From the NCBI RefSeq assembly GCF_030503855.1, contig NZ_CP129971.1:3224001-3288000 (forward strand): a stretch of DNA of 64,000 bases, read 5' to 3'. Both the position numbers and the translations under genes were made by a program. Source of the DNA: Marivirga salinae. GTDB lineage: Bacteria; Bacteroidota; Bacteroidia; Cytophagales; Cyclobacteriaceae. Shown here in pieces: positions 38,469-45,454 of this stretch; the first letter of the stretch is position 1, and the number at the start of each line of letters is the position of its first letter. The notes below the pieces were generated by a model that was given only the letters and a program-made list of their open reading frames with translations, was not told where the DNA came from and ran no database searches.

Positions 38469-38549
38469 CTAATATTCTGAATTCTATCATGCAAATCATC
38501 AATGCTAAAATGCTATCTGATTAACAGATTCAGTAAAATTTTTTCTTCA

Positions 38550-40661
38550 TTAAATAAGAGTTTCAGATTTGTCTTGAGAAGTAATGAAGCCATTTTCCAA
38601 TCTGTAAATGTTGTCAGAGAAATTAGCAACATTCATTCTGTGGCTCACAAAAAGAATGATTTTTTCATTTTTTAATTGCTGCAATAAATTTAAAATAAAC
38701 TGTTCTGTATTTCTGTCCATAGCAGATGTACCCTCATCAATCAGTAACAACTGCGGGTTTCTATATAGTGCTCTGGCTAAGCCCACTAACTGCTTTTGGC
38801 CTCCAGAAATATTGGTACCCTCTTCCCCTAGTAAAGTCATATAGCCTTGGGGGAAATTTCTAAAAAATTGATCGAAACCATATTCCCTACACCATTTTTC
38901 CGCATTTTCTAATTCAACCGGATTATCACTTAAGCATATATTAAAAAGTAAAAAATTATTGAAAATTTTAATATCCTGAGGAACGATTCCAATTAATTTC
39001 CTATACTGCTCTAACTTTATATCATTAATTGAAATTCCATTTATTTTGATGGATCCTTGTGAAGGACTGTAAAAACGTTGAACTAATTGAAAGATTGTAC
39101 TTTTCCCTGCACCACTTTCTCCCAAAAGGGTGGTAATTCCCCCCTTCTTAATGACCATGTTGATTTGATTTAACAGATTTAAAGATCCAGGGTAATGAAA
39201 ATTCAGGTTTTGTATTGTTAGTTCATTGATATTTTCGTTTTCAAAATTTAGACCACTTTTGTTTTCAGTATTTATCCCAGTAAATTCCTCCATTCTGTTG
39301 AAAGCAACTTTTGCTTCCTGAAACTGAATATTAAACAATGCTATTTGAGTTAAGGATGGTCCAATAGAACGAGATAGGGACAATAAAGCTACCATAGAAC
39401 CAATTAAAATATCGCCATTCAATACCAAAAAGGATGCTAATGATATTACGCTTACAACAAGTAGTATTCCTGCAAACTCTGTCAAAAAACTAAATTTAAC
39501 ATGGATTTTACCTAACTTAAATATTTGTTCCTGAAAGTTTCTATATAAGGAAGTGGTTCCCTTATGAAAAAGATTAATGGTTCCAGTTGTCTTTACTTCT
39601 GCTATACCGCTAATTACATCTATATAATTGCTTTCATTTAAAGCATATGCACTCATTACATCCTTTTGTGTATTTATAATAGGCTTGTTCAATCGCCAGA
39701 GGATAAGACCATATACAGGTATAAAAATAGCAACTACAACTCCAACTTGCCATGAATATACAAAGACCCCTATTAATGAAATAATGATAATAAGAAATTC
39801 AATTAAAAGATTACCAATTAAATTACTGATGGAAGATTGAATACGCCTGGTATCGTTCATTCTCGCTACCATATCCCCTGTTTTTTTTGAATCAAAAAAT
39901 GGTTTGGGTATGTGTAAAAGCGATTCAAAAAATGAAGCTATCATTCTGTTGTTAAAATCCTTGCTTTGTATGATCAAAAATGTTGACCGTACATAACTTA
40001 ATCCCACCTTTATCAATAAAATACAGGCAAATAAAACCAGTCCAATGATGAGTTTGCCGACTTCTTTGGTAGGCAAAATAACATCAATCAACTTTTGGCT
40101 AAAAATGGCCGAGGCCAACGAAAATATAGCAATTAAAACACCTAAAAAAAGTGCCGCCAATAAGATATTAAGATCTTCCTTTACCCAACTGAGAAGGTTT
40201 TCGTATTTTTTCTTTTTGGATTTTACTTTCTCAAAATTCTTGTTGGGTGTTAACTTTAGCAAGGCCTTGGTTTGCCATACTTTTTCAAGTTTTTCTTTTG
40301 ACCACAACTCTACCCCCCTGCCTGGATCATTAATTATTAATTGATCTTCCTGAAAACCATAAAGAACCACATAATGCTGTAATCTGTTTTCTAGAATCAC
40401 ATGTAAAATTGCAGGGCAATCCAATTCCTTTAAATTTTCAACTGACTCAGCTTCTAAACCTTCTACTTCAAAGTTCAAATCTTTTGCCCCTTGAAATAGT
40501 CCCAATAATTTAGTACCTGTTTGGGTAGTTCCAGTAATTCTTCTTAACTCATCAAGTGAATTGTACCCTCCATGAAATTTGATGATAGATGCCAAACAAG
40601 CAGGGCCACAATCTGATTGACCGTGTTGCTGAACGAAAAATTGGTTGAGTTTTTTAATCAT
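38550..40661 (-). CDS. C39-peptidase-containing ABC exporter for double-glycine peptides
   Basis: A 703-residue fusion of protease, membrane domain and ATPase. The N-terminal C39 peptidase has QSDCGPACLASI with catalytic Cys18, His96 in LQHYVVLY and Asp112 in NDPGRG. Five to six membrane helices follow (about 165-430). The ABC domain has Walker A GESGAGKS, signature ISGGQKQ and Walker B LLLIDEGT. Such proteins cut leader peptides after Gly-Gly and export the core. The matching precursor, with a GG leader, is at 43473-43628 on the same strand. No HlyD-type adaptor gene is in the locus. It is the last gene of the operon, 159 bases after the thioredoxin-fold gene. Confidence 0.95.
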   Translation of the reverse strand: MIKKLNQFFVQQHGQSDCGPACLASIIKFHGGYNSLDELRRITGTTQTGTKLLGLFQGAKDLNFEVEGLEAESVENLKELDCPAILHVILENRLQHYVVLYGFQEDQLIINDPGRGVELWSKEKLEKVWQTKALLKLTPNKNFEKVKSKKKKYENLLSWVKEDLNILLAALFLGVLIAIFSLASAIFSQKLIDVILPTKEVGKLIIGLVLFACILLIKVGLSYVRSTFLIIQSKDFNNRMIASFFESLLHIPKPFFDSKKTGDMVARMNDTRRIQSSISNLIGNLLIEFLIIIISLIGVFVYSWQVGVVVAIFIPVYGLILWRLNKPIINTQKDVMSAYALNESNYIDVISGIAEVKTTGTINLFHKGTTSLYRNFQEQIFKLGKIHVKFSFLTEFAGILLVVSVISLASFLVLNGDILIGSMVALLSLSRSIGPSLTQIALFNIQFQEAKVAFNRMEEFTGINTENKSGLNFENENINELTIQNLNFHYPGSLNLLNQINMVIKKGGITTLLGESGAGKSTIFQLVQRFYSPSQGSIKINGISINDIKLEQYRKLIGIVPQDIKIFNNFLLFNICLSDNPVELENAEKWCREYGFDQFFRNFPQGYMTLLGEEGTNISGGQKQLVGLARALYRNPQLLLIDEGTSAMDRNTEQFILNLLQQLKNEKIILFVSHRMNVANFSDNIYRLENGFITSQDKSETLI

Positions 40662-40819
40662 TGGATTGCTTAGTTTAAATACCTGTCAAAAATTTCTTGG
40701 AGTAATGTAATCTGTCAAATTTAATTATATTAATAATCTAAATATCTTTAATCAACAGATGCTTTTTTAATCAAAAAATTGTGGAATTTTGGTAAAATGC
40801 AGTTTTTCTAATTTTTTCA

Positions 40820-41299
40820 TCACTCCAAGACTTTCAAAATAGCTTCTATTTTCACCTCCCCTATGAAATGTTTTTTTAGTAAGCTGTTTTCATAAATAAA
40901 AGTTTGGGGTACTCCACCAGTAATTGTGTTGGTCAATAAATAAGGATCGACTTCAACATAATGCTGTGCAAGATTATATTGCTGAAGAAAATCAAGTGCA
41001 TTCTTTTTAGGTTCAAATGAAGCTAACAGTAATTGATAGTGTTGAAACTTTTCTATATTCTCACTAATCTCTTTCATTTCCCATTGGCAGAAATGACAAT
41101 CACTATTGAAATACATAAAAATAGTGGACTGTTCATTATTAGTTTCTTTTATTCCCAAAATATTTGTCAAAGAATTCAGGTTCTGAATTATCTCTTCTGA
41201 ATGGTTTATTTTTTTCAATTTCATTACACTCGTGTAACCCATCCAACCTAATAAACCAACAATTAACAAGGACATTATAGATAAAACTATCTTTTTCAT
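40820..41299 (-). CDS. Membrane-anchored thioredoxin-fold protein of the peptide locus
   Basis: A 159-residue protein: an N-terminal membrane anchor (about 4-26) then a thioredoxin-like domain with FMYFNSDCHFCQWEM (redox pair Cys68/Cys71) and the cis-Pro loop TGGVPQTFIYEN. It should face the periplasm. The start ATG 41299 overlaps the previous stop as TAATG; the frame is open further upstream but that part overlaps the neighbour. Given two cysteines in the secreted core peptide of the same operon, it may form, reduce or reshuffle that disulfide; this is inference. Confidence 0.88.
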   Translation of the reverse strand: MKKIVLSIMSLLIVGLLGWMGYTSVMKLKKINHSEEIIQNLNSLTNILGIKETNNEQSTIFMYFNSDCHFCQWEMKEISENIEKFQHYQLLLASFEPKKNALDFLQQYNLAQHYVEVDPYLLTNTITGGVPQTFIYENSLLKKHFIGEVKIEAILKVLE

Positions 41300-41937
41300 T
41301 ACGCAGTCATATTTATTGACAAAAATGTTATAAATAAAATCCAAACTATTAAAGCAGAACCATAAACGGGCAAAGTAAATTTTAGCGCAGAATCATAATC
41401 CTTACTAGTAATTTTCTTAATACCTAAAGCAAGAACTAAGAGATAAATAAATTCAAAAATATTAATGGACTTTAGAGGGAAAATAAGCCATGAATCTAAC
41501 TGAGAAGGGTCATATATGCTTAATAAAGAAAGGGGGGCAAAATATTGAATTTCTAACAAGGAGTGAGAAGTATCGAATAATCCAAACCAAACCAAAGAAA
41601 AAAAAGAAGGTAGAAGCCAAATAAAATCAGCTATCATTACAATTTTGAAAATTGACTTATAAGTTATATTTAAATTAAATATTATAGAGCCACAAAGAAT
41701 CCAAAAAGATACAATTGACAACTCAATCAATTGCAATGCTGGAATTAACAAATAATTTACCCAAGACCATTCATTTTTTATACTAATCAATTTCAATATG
41801 CGATCATAACTTAATTGATTACTGTAATGATCTTTAATTAAGGTATCCGTTATAAGAAATTCATTTGTTAGATAATATAAAATTAAATTGCACAATACTA
41901 GGATAAAAATTAAATATGAATTCTTAATTTCTGTCAT
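41299..41937 (-). CDS. Orphan multi-pass membrane protein of the peptide locus (immunity candidate)
   Basis: A 212-residue protein with five to six membrane helices and no motif I recognise. Short charged loops separate hydrophobic segments (LIFILVLCNLILYYL, LIELSIVSFWILCGSIIF, IVMIADFIWLLPSFFSLVWF, FEFIYLLVLALGI, YGSALIVWILFITFLS). It is translationally coupled to the thioredoxin-fold gene (TAATG) and starts three bases after the permease stop, so it belongs to the operon. Dedicated immunity proteins of bacteriocin loci are often small multi-pass membrane proteins, which makes that role possible, but a permease or accessory export role is equally open. Confidence 0.75.
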   Translation of the reverse strand: MTEIKNSYLIFILVLCNLILYYLTNEFLITDTLIKDHYSNQLSYDRILKLISIKNEWSWVNYLLIPALQLIELSIVSFWILCGSIIFNLNITYKSIFKIVMIADFIWLLPSFFSLVWFGLFDTSHSLLEIQYFAPLSLLSIYDPSQLDSWLIFPLKSINIFEFIYLLVLALGIKKITSKDYDSALKFTLPVYGSALIVWILFITFLSINMTA

Positions 41938-41940
41938 TGT

Positions 41941-42777
41941 TTAATTGTTTTGATTTCGTATTAATTTTCTATAATAATATAATACTGTTAGTCCAATACA
42001 CAGATAAATAAAATTTAGTGTAGTTATATTTAATCCTGTAGAATTAATAGGTACCAATTGTTTAATCTCTGAAGTTGAAGTAAATAATTTATATCCCCAA
42101 AACATCTGCATAAATGGATTAAATGCATCTGAAATAAGAAAAATACTTGAAATTGGAAGAAATATTAAACAACCAATAAATACAGTGAGCTTATGGATAA
42201 CAATAGATAACACATATAGAATTATTATCAACATTGAACTAAATAAAAAAGTAATTGGGATTTGTTCAATTAAAGAAAGATGGCTTCTATTATCAGGTAC
42301 TATTTCAAAATCTGGTCTTAGTACATACAATAATTCAGAAAAAGCAACAATTAATGCTATAATGATTATATATGTAAACATTGCAAAAAATAGAATTATC
42401 AATATCTTTATTATATCGATGTTAAACATTGAATAGGGAGATCGTTTTAGTAGGTCAAAACCATTTGATGCTTTTTCCATATTATTTACTGTAGATATTA
42501 TTAGTCCAATAAAAAATGGAAATAAAAAAGAAACCATTGCAAGAAAACTACTATAGGTATATAGCCATTTATTTTGTATTTTACTAAATTCGTATTCCGA
42601 TAGAAACCTTGTAGCATCTTTGGAAAAAACTGAATATGAAAATATAATAATTAAACCTATCACTATAGATGAAATAAGCCAAATTGATTTTAATTTACTG
42701 ATCTTAAATAGCTCGGATAAAAATAGGTTCTTTTGAAATGTTATATAATTAATAATTACATTCATTGTAGATTTCAT
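41941..42777 (-). CDS. ABC-2 type permease of the peptide locus
   Basis: A 278-residue membrane protein with six predicted helices and a long N-terminal cytoplasmic lead, like ABC-2 permeases of the LanE/LanG/BcrB kind. Segments: IWLISSIVIGLIIIFSYSVF, FLAMVSFLFPFFIGLIIST, IIKILIILFFAMFTYIIIIA, TFLFSSMLIIILYVLSIVIH, FIGCLIFLPISSIFLI, IYLCIGLTVLYYY. The second is followed by NNMEKASNGFDLLKRSPYS, a typical ABC-2 coupling loop. It overlaps the ATPase gene by 29 bases. The pair probably expels the peptide from the membrane (self-protection) or moves a related substrate. Confidence 0.85.
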   Translation of the reverse strand: MKSTMNVIINYITFQKNLFLSELFKISKLKSIWLISSIVIGLIIIFSYSVFSKDATRFLSEYEFSKIQNKWLYTYSSFLAMVSFLFPFFIGLIISTVNNMEKASNGFDLLKRSPYSMFNIDIIKILIILFFAMFTYIIIIALIVAFSELLYVLRPDFEIVPDNRSHLSLIEQIPITFLFSSMLIIILYVLSIVIHKLTVFIGCLIFLPISSIFLISDAFNPFMQMFWGYKLFTSTSEIKQLVPINSTGLNITTLNFIYLCIGLTVLYYYRKLIRNQNN

Positions 42778-43456
42778 GAACGGTTTTAGTATTATTTTCT
42801 AAATCTGTATTATTATAATTAATACTTCCATTTTTTAAATGTATTAATGAATTACAAATTCTATCTAAAAAATCAAAATCATGACCTGCTACCATAAATG
42901 TCACATTATATTGGCTATTAAGAAAGAGAATCAATGAAATCAAATCTTCAACACCTGATTGATCTAACCCATTTGTTGGTTCATCTAAAACTATTAAATC
43001 TGGTTCATGTATGAAAGCAAATCCAATTCCTAGTCTTTGTCTCATACCTAATGAAATTGATTTAACAAGTTTATTTTTTACTTTCTTTAAATTTACAATA
43101 TCTAATATTTTATTAATTTTGTAAGCAGGCAATCCATATAAAATTGAAATGTACTTTAAATTATCCTCTATAGACAAATGTTTATAAACATTTGCCTCGC
43201 CTACTAAAAAACCAGCAACCTTACTAAATTCTCGATTATTGTATAATATAGCATTCTTCTGATTGAAATGAATCTGCCCACAATCAGGAAAATAATTTCT
43301 ACTAATCACTTTGATTAAAGAGGTCTTACCACTTCCATTTGATCCAATAATACCTAGAATTGCATTTTTACTAATAGAAAAGCTAATATCCTTAAGGATA
43401 TTAGCTTTATTGATAGTTAAAAATATGGATTTTACTTCGAGAAGTACTTTTTCCAT
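42749..43456 (-). CDS. ABC transporter ATP-binding protein of the peptide locus
   Basis: A 235-residue ATPase, cytosolic, with Walker A GSNGSGKTS (38-46), signature SLGMRQR (135-141), Walker B LIVLDEP (154-160) and switch His in AGHDFDF. The signature SLGM in place of SGGQ is common in LanF/BcrA-type ATPases that protect producers from their own peptide. It starts 16 bases after the peptide gene, and overlaps the permease gene, so it is the second gene of the operon. Confidence 0.93.
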   Translation of the reverse strand: MEKVLLEVKSIFLTINKANILKDISFSISKNAILGIIGSNGSGKTSLIKVISRNYFPDCGQIHFNQKNAILYNNREFSKVAGFLVGEANVYKHLSIEDNLKYISILYGLPAYKINKILDIVNLKKVKNKLVKSISLGMRQRLGIGFAFIHEPDLIVLDEPTNGLDQSGVEDLISLILFLNSQYNVTFMVAGHDFDFLDRICNSLIHLKNGSINYNNTDLENNTKTVHEIYNECNY

Positions 43457-43472
43457 TTAAATTAACTTTGAC

Positions 43473-43628
43473 TTAAAAAGTGGACATATACGCTGCCGAA
43501 CAAGAAGACCAAGCTGATGATGCACTTTCTCCATATTCCATTAAAGTTGCTGCACATGGCAATACAAAATTAATGTAATCATTTCCACCTTCAATTTTTT
43601 CTAAACTAATCTCATTTAAATTTTTCAT
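43473..43628 (-). CDS. Double-glycine leader precursor peptide (bacteriocin-like or signal peptide)
   Basis: A 51-codon gene read directly from the minus strand. The leader MKNLNEISLEKIEGG follows the double-glycine pattern: Leu at -12, Leu at -7, Ile at -4, Gly-Gly at -2/-1. The core starts NDYINFVLPCAATLMEYG and runs 36 residues, with Cys25 and Cys43 of the precursor, a Ser/Ala-rich second half (SASSAW, SSCSAAYM) and an aromatic end. No lanthipeptide, sactipeptide or cyclase modification enzyme is encoded nearby, so the mature form may be unmodified apart from a disulfide. It is the first gene of an operon holding an ABC pair, a thioredoxin-fold protein and a C39 exporter. A bactericidal or a signalling role is not decided by sequence. 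Confidence 0.88.
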   Translation of the reverse strand: MKNLNEISLEKIEGGNDYINFVLPCAATLMEYGESASSAWSSCSAAYMSTF

Positions 43629-43661
43629 AATAAAAATTTTATGTTAAACATTTATTTGATT

Positions 43662-43669
43662 CAAATTTA
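43662..43669 (-). promoter_or_regulatory. Putative -7 box for the peptide operon
   Basis: On the minus strand TAAATTTG fits TAnnTTTG, 33 bases before the precursor start. No clear -33 element is seen. Confidence 0.4.
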
Positions 43670-43690
43670 ACTGACAAAGCATGTAAGTAT

Positions 43691-43729
43691 TATTCATAAA
43701 AAGAATATTTTTATTCAATAAATGAATAA
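43691..43729. promoter_or_regulatory. Inverted repeats in the divergent control region (operator candidate)
   Basis: TTATTCA (43711-43717) faces TGAATAA (43723-43729) across 5 bases, and TATTC (43691-43695) faces GAATA (43703-43707). The half-site ATTCA/TGAAT is thus repeated between the peptide gene and the Xre gene. The region is AT-rich, so chance is possible. Confidence 0.4.
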
Positions 43730-43773
43730 ATGATTTTTAGTTAATTTTTTTTCTACAGAAAAAAAATTAACAG

Positions 43774-43781
43774 TATATTTG
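43774..43781 (+). promoter_or_regulatory. Putative -7 box for the Xre regulator gene
   Basis: TATATTTG fits TAnnTTTG, 27 bases before ATG 43809. It overlaps the in-frame TTG at 43779, which argues against that start. Confidence 0.45.
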
Positions 43782-43808
43782 TATAAACGACCAAAAACTT
43801 ACACTCAA

Positions 43809-44156
43809 ATGATAAATTATCAACTAAAAAAACTACGTATAGCAAAAAACCTAAGTCAAGAGCAATTAGCTGATGAATTAAATATTTCGCAATCTACTTA
43901 TTCAAGAATTGAAAATGGAAATCAAAATTGGGCGAAATACTTAAATGAAATATGTGATTTTTTTAATATCGAACCATCTATATTATTTGTTAAAGAATTA
44001 CCTTTAAATAATTCAAAAAAAATTCAAACAAATCGTGAAATTGACAACAGTAAAAATCAAATTGACGAAAAAGAAAAAATTATAAATATTTTGGAAAAAC
44101 AAGTTGAATTATTGGAAGAAAAAATTCAGATACATAAAATTCACAACGAAAACTAA
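43809..44156 (+). CDS. Xre-family transcriptional regulator with coiled-coil tail
   Basis: A 115-residue DNA-binding protein. The N-terminal helix-turn-helix is typical: LKKLRIAKNLSQEQLADELN, then ISQSTYSRIENGNQNW (residues about 7-42). A C-terminal coiled coil (about 78-112, NILEKQVELLEEKI) probably drives oligomerisation. It is divergent from the peptide operon with 180 bases between starts, so it likely controls that operon and itself. The ATG at 43809 is preferred over a TTG at 43779 that lies in the promoter candidate. Confidence 0.92.
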   Translation: MINYQLKKLRIAKNLSQEQLADELNISQSTYSRIENGNQNWAKYLNEICDFFNIEPSILFVKELPLNNSKKIQTNREIDNSKNQIDEKEKIINILEKQVELLEEKIQIHKIHNEN

Positions 44157-44802
44157 TGTAATATAAATCCTTAGATAGAGTCGGAAAATTTCAAATATCT
44201 GAAAAGCCGTAATCTCTAATTAAAATAATAATATTATTTTAATTGACTCTTCAGACAACCAAAAATATAAGCATCCTCTGATTAAACAATTTATTATCAT
44301 GGTAACTCATTCTTGTTTATCTCCTGTGTAAACCAGCATCAATGTCATAAAGAAAGTTGCAGTAAATATATAACAAGTTAGTTTCTTTAACATTCAGTCC
44401 TCTAGACAAATTCCTGACCTTAAATGATATAGCAAATGGAATAAATTTCAGTATAACGTAAACTGATAGCTAAGGTCTTAAGCTAGCCCTCTCCTTAATC
44501 CATGAGTGACGACAACAAGAAAAGGGTTGACGTTTGTGCCCAATAATCTGTAGAATAAATTTTTAAGCACTACAACGGAGTTTAAACAAATAAATACAGA
44601 ACCATTTCATCAATAAAAAAAGACTGCACATCAAAATAATCTTCAATAAGAACATAATCCTATGCTAGAGTTTGCTAAACTGAGCAAAGTTTAAAGGAGG
44701 TATAAAGATACAAATTTGTAGGGTCGATACTTTTCTATAAATTAGTGTGAGATCAGTATGTTTTCTTTTGAAAATACATTTTTTTTAATTTGATCTGATC
44801 AT
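44157..44802. other. Intergenic stretch, no gene recognised
   Basis: About 650 bases with stops in all frames. Base composition is mixed, less AT-rich in 44440-44540 (GCTAGCCCTCTCCTTAATCC). I could not match it to the IS remnant, a tRNA or a known RNA. It may be decayed mobile DNA, but that is a guess. Confidence 0.4.
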
Positions 44803-45240
44803 TAGCTTATGGTTAAAGAAGCTGTAAGCTACCAAACACGACAGAGCATTGTTAAATACAATATTTATGCTCCGGTGACGGTTGTGCCACAAGTCACAAA
44901 TGTCTTTAAACAGTTCGATAACCGTTTCAAGCAATAATCTCTTTTATAAGAGAAATTTATTCTACATGGTCAGCAATTTGATTTTCGTCTTCATTTTTTT
45001 TAGTGAAAAGGGAAATGCTCTGCCGGTAGAGTTTTAGGAATAGCTTTTTTCAATTGTAGGCTGCATCACATATATCTTTCAGAAATCCATATACATGCAT
45101 AGATGAATTATCACCCCAAGGTAGTTGTCGCAAACATTCTTGGATGAAAAGGTAAACCCCAAAAATTCTCTTTGGTGGTTGGTAAATAAGTGCATTTTAA
45201 GACCATATAACCATTGAGTGGAAGTCCACAGCACTTGCCA
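44803..45240 (-). pseudogene. IS982-type transposase remnant
   Basis: Two separated pieces of an IS982-family DDE transposase are readable on the minus strand. TQWLYGLKMHLFTNHQREF (about 45170-45225) matches the WFYGFKLH region of that family. LLETVIELFKDICDLWHNRH (44875-44934), followed by RSI and CLVAYSFF, matches its C-terminal E-x-x-x-D/HSRHRS region. Between them the frame is broken by stops and shifts, and the N-terminal third is absent. It is a dead, decayed copy. Terminal inverted repeats were not identified. Confidence 0.75.
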
Positions 45241-45253
45241 AATCATCGAACAA

Positions 45254-45454
45254 CTATACAATGGCAGATAAATATAGACCCGTATTGACAAATTGATATC
45301 CGAAAAAATCAACAATATCACCATCAAAAGCATTTTGTGTAGCTGTGTTGTAAAATACAGGGAAAATTGAAGACTTGATTACTATAGCATATACAGAATT
45401 AGCGCAATCGTACATGCACCATGCATTGATGGTTTTGGGTTGATTAATTTTCAA
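45254..45454 (-). pseudogene. N-terminal fragment of a UMF1-type MFS transporter
   Basis: Sixty-six codons begin PKTINAWCMYDCANSVYAIV after a TTG, matching the start of UMF1/BtlA-like MFS transporters (usual form NAWCMYDWANSVY). The next segment KSSIFPVFYNTATQ and FFGYQFVNTGLYL also fits. The frame then stops where the IS982 remnant begins, and no further part of the transporter is found downstream. Trp to Cys in the first helix motif and the missing ATG suggest decay. The truncation is most simply explained by insertion of the IS and later deletion. Confidence 0.78.

Follow-up and report, generated by a model that had tools for sequence, protein, structure and literature searches.

What does a small double-glycine (GG) peptide gene produce in the chromosome of Marivirga salinae, and what is the role of the ATP-binding cassette (ABC) transporter pair that separates it from its presumed processing machinery? 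The locus occupies positions 38550-44156 of a 64-kb stretch of contig NZ_CP129971.1, the whole of which we call the window, and we confirmed all seven open reading frames (ORFs) reported there. On the minus strand these are a precursor with a 15-residue GG leader and a 36-residue core containing two Cys (43473-43628), an ABC ATPase (42749-43456, 235 aa), an ABC-2-type permease (41941-42777, 278 aa), a membrane protein with five transmembrane segments (five-TM protein; 41299-41937, 212 aa), a membrane-anchored thioredoxin (Trx)-fold protein with a CHFC motif (40820-41299, 159 aa) and a C39-ABC exporter (38550-40661, 703 aa); an Xre-family regulator (43809-44156) diverges from them on the plus strand. 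The precursor and ATPase genes lie 16 bases apart, the ATPase and permease genes overlap by 29 bases, 3 bases separate the permease gene from that of the five-TM protein, and the latter shares one base with the Trx gene (TAATG). The preliminary description of this DNA is therefore borne out for every ORF and joint of the seven-gene unit, as well as for the single peptide locus with a C39 exporter and the ease with which the small precursor gene is missed, while its proposal that the ABC pair may protect the producer stands as a possibility. We consider it fairly probable (about 0.66) that the locus encodes a disulfide-bonded bacteriocin of the bacteroidetocin type, accompanied by a dedicated protection cassette.

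The gene set itself points in this direction. According to the accessible text of the report on bacteroidetocins, or class IIf bacteriocins, their region consists of genes for a five-TM protein, a precursor, a thiol oxidoreductase and a C39-ABC protein (Coyne et al., 2019, PMC6671954). These four genes suffice in E. coli, the oxidoreductase gene is found in most of the regions, and deletion of either the TM or the oxidoreductase gene attenuates toxin activity, both being needed for full activity of bacteroidetocin B (PMC6671954). The earlier claims that the gene set was undescribed and the membrane protein an orphan were not supported, because precursor, five-TM protein, thiol oxidoreductase and C39-ABC protein are together the bacteroidetocin set; judged by anatomy and gene set, counterparts of both the membrane protein and the Trx protein have been described. 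Of the class IIf features, the window has a GG leader of 15 residues (15-16 are asked), the C39-ABC protein, the five TM segments, the oxidoreductase and at least two Cys. Bacteroidetocins A and B are basic and have four Cys, a number that the window core does not reach, and the wider set needs only at least two (PMC6671954).

The exporter matches PF03412, PF00664 and PF00005, all over cut-off, and has Walker A and signature motifs as well as the C39 residues C18, H96 and D112, identified by aligning it to the bacteriocin transporter 4ry2. This transporter and its variants, and also ComA, are its best solved relatives. PF03412 has a single match in the genome, at this exporter; the other exporter matches begin at residue 131 or later and thus lack the peptidase part. 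By analogy with the family, the C39 domain would be expected to cut the GG leader and the same protein to export the 36-residue core. The nearest relatives of the exporter come from a Bacteroidetes metagenome-assembled genome (86% identical), Marivirga aurantiaca (78%) and M. atlantica (68%). Among 10 Marivirga genomes, 5 have this type of exporter (window included) and 2 have another C39 type (30-31% identity), while in the other 3 neither type was found at E <= 1e-90. When 395 genomes were drawn evenly from Bacteroidota, 35 of them matched the exporter at E <= 1e-100, and the 39 exporter matches in this draw fell into one group of 20 at 36-100% identity and another of 19 at 27-33%.

Moreover, the exporter, five-TM and Trx genes travel as a module. 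We collected 55 loci, 39 of them chosen by exporter (including the window and one duplicate contig) and 16 fetched for the membrane protein, and found the three genes together in 38. Several contigs end early. Of the 39 exporter-chosen loci, 36 encode the membrane protein and 28 encode the Trx protein, and each was present in 41 of a later collection of 49 loci. In comparison, among 18 loci of the more distant exporters (17 of the 19 in the 27-33% group plus one more), both genes were near the exporter only once (L132), and in L135 a Trx-like match lies about 4 kb away on the opposite strand. The recurrence of the three genes is more than chance would give. In the Trx protein, CHFC occupies residues 68-71, both of its Cys are invariant in the 9 aligned sequences, and the profile matches thioredoxin-like and ResA structures, which makes this membrane-anchored protein the probable disulfide maker of the peptide, oxidising core Cys10 and Cys28. 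The membrane protein would assist maturation or export; the counterparts of both proteins are needed for full bacteroidetocin B activity. The membrane protein has five hydrophobic segments, is found beside this exporter subfamily and gives a helical AlphaFold2 model (mean pLDDT 90.7), for which structure comparison returned no clear solved relative. The family appears distantly Yip1-like, as PF04893 matches only two paralogs, below cut-off.

Some match to the five-TM protein occurs in 100 of 148 genomes of the family. In L077 and L078, five-TM relatives have neither exporter nor Trx gene and adjoin ORFs of about 990 residues; such relatives are a possible origin of the module's TM protein. The module also occurs on a Flammeovirga pectinis plasmid (NZ_CP034564.1; L164 and L203), beside transposase genes and with a LanC-like protein, a glycosyltransferase and a GLPGLI protein as neighbours, and one two-Cys GG peptide is located downstream.

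Most of the peptides linked to the module carry at least two Cys. Our GG-leader rule, run over the whole window, called one ORF, this precursor, whose core has Cys at positions 10 and 28, a calculated mass of about 3889 Da when reduced, and an acidic character (net charge about -3, isoelectric point (pI) 4.05). At E <= 1 the precursor matched none of the Pfam and NCBIfam models, in a scan whose HMMER filters drop weak short matches, and a protein search yielded no candidate relative; the cerein 7B type is among the curated bacteriocin precursor families. To count Cys we used one fixed GG caller and distinct cores. Of the 51 module-linked cores, 35 have two Cys, 15 have four and 1 has one, whereas the 11 cores beside other C39 exporters have none (9 cores) or one (2 cores), so that at least two Cys are present in 50/51 against 0/11 (Fisher p = 2.4e-11, with relatedness of the cores ignored). 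The same caller was applied unchanged to the 49 later loci, where the 45 new cores near the membrane protein have two Cys (34 cores), four (5), three (4), one (1) or none (1). At least two are thus found in 43 of 45, while the narrower "two or four" holds for 50/51 cores of the first set and 39/45 of the later one. The window core obeys the rule of at least two Cys, and this enrichment fits the Trx-like protein as a disulfide maker. The preliminary description had named homologous loci devoid of any GG-leader gene as evidence that would count against it; of the 52 loci that encode the membrane protein, 38 have a callable GG-leader gene, which does not overturn the reading.

Module loci of the first set in which no Trx gene was detected had Cys-rich cores in 10 of 10 cases. 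In L047, L049-L053 and L110, a protein of 290-317 residues lies between peptide and exporter, in place of the Trx gene; one scanned member of this group matches CarboxypepD_reg, and the peptides have 2-4 Cys and, in most, an FW motif at the start.

We then have to account for the ABC pair, which could be a self-protection transporter. Its ATPase matches PF00005 over cut-off and has as best NCBIfam match the lantibiotic-protection ATPase TIGR03740, at 155.1 bits, below the cut-off of 309.75. The permease matches PF12730 below cut-off. In 296 genomes of the phylum it has one paralog, in its own genome, which is 34% identical and passes PF12730, and one weak match (22%, E 2.9e-4), and nothing was found in the protein database at E <= 0.001. 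The slot between precursor and module, which the pair fills in the window, varies within Marivirga, where the exporter is kept (68-86% identical) and the precursor and slot genes differ: L060 has two membrane ORFs and another ATPase, L039 has a 237-residue ORF, and L040 has two precursors, the first of them followed by a lipocalin-like ORF (PF13648 below cut-off). When we surveyed the 94 loci with the membrane protein, window included, with a motif rule and within 4 kb upstream, an ABC ATPase appeared at 14 loci and a lipocalin-like ORF at 5 different ones. Next to 13 of these ATPases there is a membrane ORF that is not the one of the module, and the remaining ATPase (L113) lies at a contig edge. 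This is the pattern to be expected of a protection pair that changes fast and is specific to its peptide, although it is not proof. We suggest that the ATPase and permease would form a dedicated transporter of the LanFE/BcrAB kind, matched to this peptide. Transporters in some Bacteroidales clusters for ribosomally synthesized and post-translationally modified peptides may give immunity, as suggested in the accessible part of PMC10352776.

Alternatively, the pair may not confer immunity at all, being either a passenger derived from the stand-alone pair of this genome or an exporter of something else. The paralogous permease does stand beside an ATPase (G000:C1:341589; L159 8587-10099), the GG-leader caller found no GG peptide near it, and with the paralog as query the family was found in 0/9 other Marivirga genomes. 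Against this alternative, the pair is part of a co-oriented unit, in which 16 bases separate it from the precursor and 3 bases from the module, and other, divergent ABC ATPases fill the same slot in 13 further loci. We regard the alternative as unlikely, though a real contender.

Less probable still is a reading in which the peptide acts as a secreted signal and not as a weapon, with the Xre protein and the ABC pair serving sensing or uptake. The regulator adjoins the peptide gene, and the single short core is acidic, unlike the basic bacteroidetocins A and B described in the accessible text of PMC6671954. Against a signal, some relatives carry several unrelated cores per locus, as in weapon loci (up to four in L062 and L128), no kinase domain was found among the eight proteins scanned, and the same gene set yields killing peptides in Bacteroides (PMC6671954). 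Killing through BamA, the target of bacteroidetocins according to the accessible part of PMC8546649, is very improbable as a strict-sense identity, for the locus shares the four genes and the 15-residue leader but has an acidic core with two Cys rather than four and no relative in the protein search.

A bacteriocin with its own protection cassette is the reading we prefer, and several observations weigh against it. The producers of bacteroidetocins A and B inhibit themselves and have no evident immunity gene, and neither the TM nor the oxidoreductase gene protected a sensitive strain (PMC6671954). These producers appear to do without immunity, so membership of the class does not call for a protection gene. 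The ABC pair is absent from the other Marivirga loci, and its paralog stands alone with no GG peptide called. The later set includes the three-Cys cores, the one-Cys core and the Cys-free core. Six flavobacterial loci (L047, L049-L053) have Cys-rich peptides and no detected Trx gene, so this Trx gene is not needed everywhere for Cys cores. Finally, anatomy and gene set are the basis for orthology to the bacteroidetocin proteins. A profile search with the membrane protein returned 65 proteins, a few of them named, and no protein of Bacteroides or Phocaeicola is among those names. In favour of orthology, the module is also found, with homologous proteins, in Prolixibacteraceae and Draconibacterium.

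If the ABC pair protects its host, self-protection exists in the bacteroidetocin class and becomes testable. A literature search on bacteroidetocins, class IIf and Bacteroidota double-glycine bacteriocins, which saw its sources in part and did not cover Fig. 8 of PMC6671954, where extra genes stand beside the four-gene regions, found no bacteroidetocin immunity transporter, and a search for papers on bacteriocins of Marivirga returned none. The Cys rule helps to spot peptides of the module elsewhere in Bacteroidota, where they may escape automatic annotation. It also links the Trx-fold gene with disulfide formation, which is of interest since Bacteroides is said to lack general disulfide machinery (PMC6671954). 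We tentatively advance, at somewhat less than even odds, a broader view in which the bacteroidetocin module, with its Yip1-like five-TM protein, TlpA/ResA-like oxidase and C39-ABC protein, serves Bacteroidota in general as a platform for peptide weapons closed by disulfides, cassettes of a peptide and its protection being exchanged on it, and the ABC pair of the window, with only one weak match outside its own genome, is a dedicated class IIf immunity transporter.

The divergent Xre gene, which has counterparts in Marivirga L039, L040 and L060, encodes a PF01381 match and could control the divergent promoters. Its start is probably the ATG at 43809, given that the L040 relative aligns from residue 11 and that a TATATTTG box lies at 43774. 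Another box, TAAATTTG, at 43662-43669 on the minus strand, precedes the precursor, so that boxes like the Bacteroidota -7 element stand before both divergent genes. At the set spacing, the one full promoter match lies within the precursor gene, and none was found upstream of either gene. Directly upstream of the Xre box there is a perfect palindrome with 15-nt arms and a 2-nt spacer (43740-43771), a candidate operator; when the 241-base region was resampled 2000 times under a first-order Markov model, 4 resamples reached arms of 15 nt. With spacers of up to 6 bases allowed, the window has two perfect palindromes with 15-nt arms, and both fall in this locus. The second, of 30 bases with no spacer (43379-43408), is inside the ATPase gene, where it encodes KANILKDISF, and the mRNA could form a hairpin there, shortly after the precursor gene. 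As for the exporter gene, the 158 bases that separate it from the Trx gene indicate that it is not tightly coupled, and a further TAAATTTG box between the two suggests that it may have its own promoter. The Trx gene was taken to start at its ATG; a TTG-extended ORF reaching 41344 is not supported, as Marivirga relatives align only from residue 16.

The locus also has a traceable insertion site. The GAF and ExbD genes that flank it are close neighbours in all 9 other Marivirga genomes, and in 8 of them an intact ORF of 433-439 residues lies in between, the L214 copy of which matches PF11700 (ATG22-like major facilitator superfamily, MFS); in L220, the ninth genome, about 0.5 kb separates the two flanking genes and no such ORF is present. 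In the window, codons 1-65 of this MFS gene remain next to ExbD (45260-45454, minus strand, 85% identical). The island replaced most of the MFS gene and, from the remnant and the intact copies in congeners, spans about 38469-45259. Its AT-rich Xre, permease, ATPase and membrane genes have 23-26% GC, compared with 33% in the window as a whole. L039 and L060 carry their modules at another site, in each case downstream of one shared pair of conserved ORFs (205 and 230 residues). Between the Xre gene and the MFS remnant, about 1.1 kb (44160-45259) has no long ORFs and may hold decayed island genes. Two Marivirga loci that pair HlyD with a C39 exporter (L162 and L163, the latter with its HlyD-like ORF split) and the bacteroidetocin-type module of L040 adjoin similar OmpH-like and carboxypeptidase-like ORFs, which possibly mark a hotspot for peptide loci.

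How, then, does the locus compare with known systems? The congener locus L162 likewise has GG peptides beside a C39-ABC exporter, but it has HlyD next to the exporter, the cores of both its GG candidates are Cys-free, and no five-TM or Trx gene was seen among the ORFs listed. Self-protection transporters of the LanFEG/BcrAB kind consist of a separate ATPase and ABC-2 permease next to the peptide gene, as in the window, whose ATPase has TIGR03740 as its best match; it differs in reaching half of that cut-off and in having only one permease, and no lanthionine enzyme was found among the eight locus-region proteins scanned. Pediocin-type class IIa operons share a class II GG peptide, a C39-ABC exporter and a disulfide accessory protein, PedC in their case, whereas the window core has no YGNGV motif, a five-TM protein is present, the ABC pair replaces the small immunity protein and the host is Gram-negative. 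Closest are the bacteroidetocins, with which the locus shares the 15-residue GG leader, the C39-ABC protein, the five-TM protein, the thiol oxidoreductase, the small Cys-containing core and a home in Bacteroidota. It departs from them in gene order, the peptide gene being upstream of the TM gene rather than between the TM and oxidoreductase genes, in an acidic core with two Cys where bacteroidetocins A and B have four, and in its two additions to their set, the ABC pair and the Xre gene.

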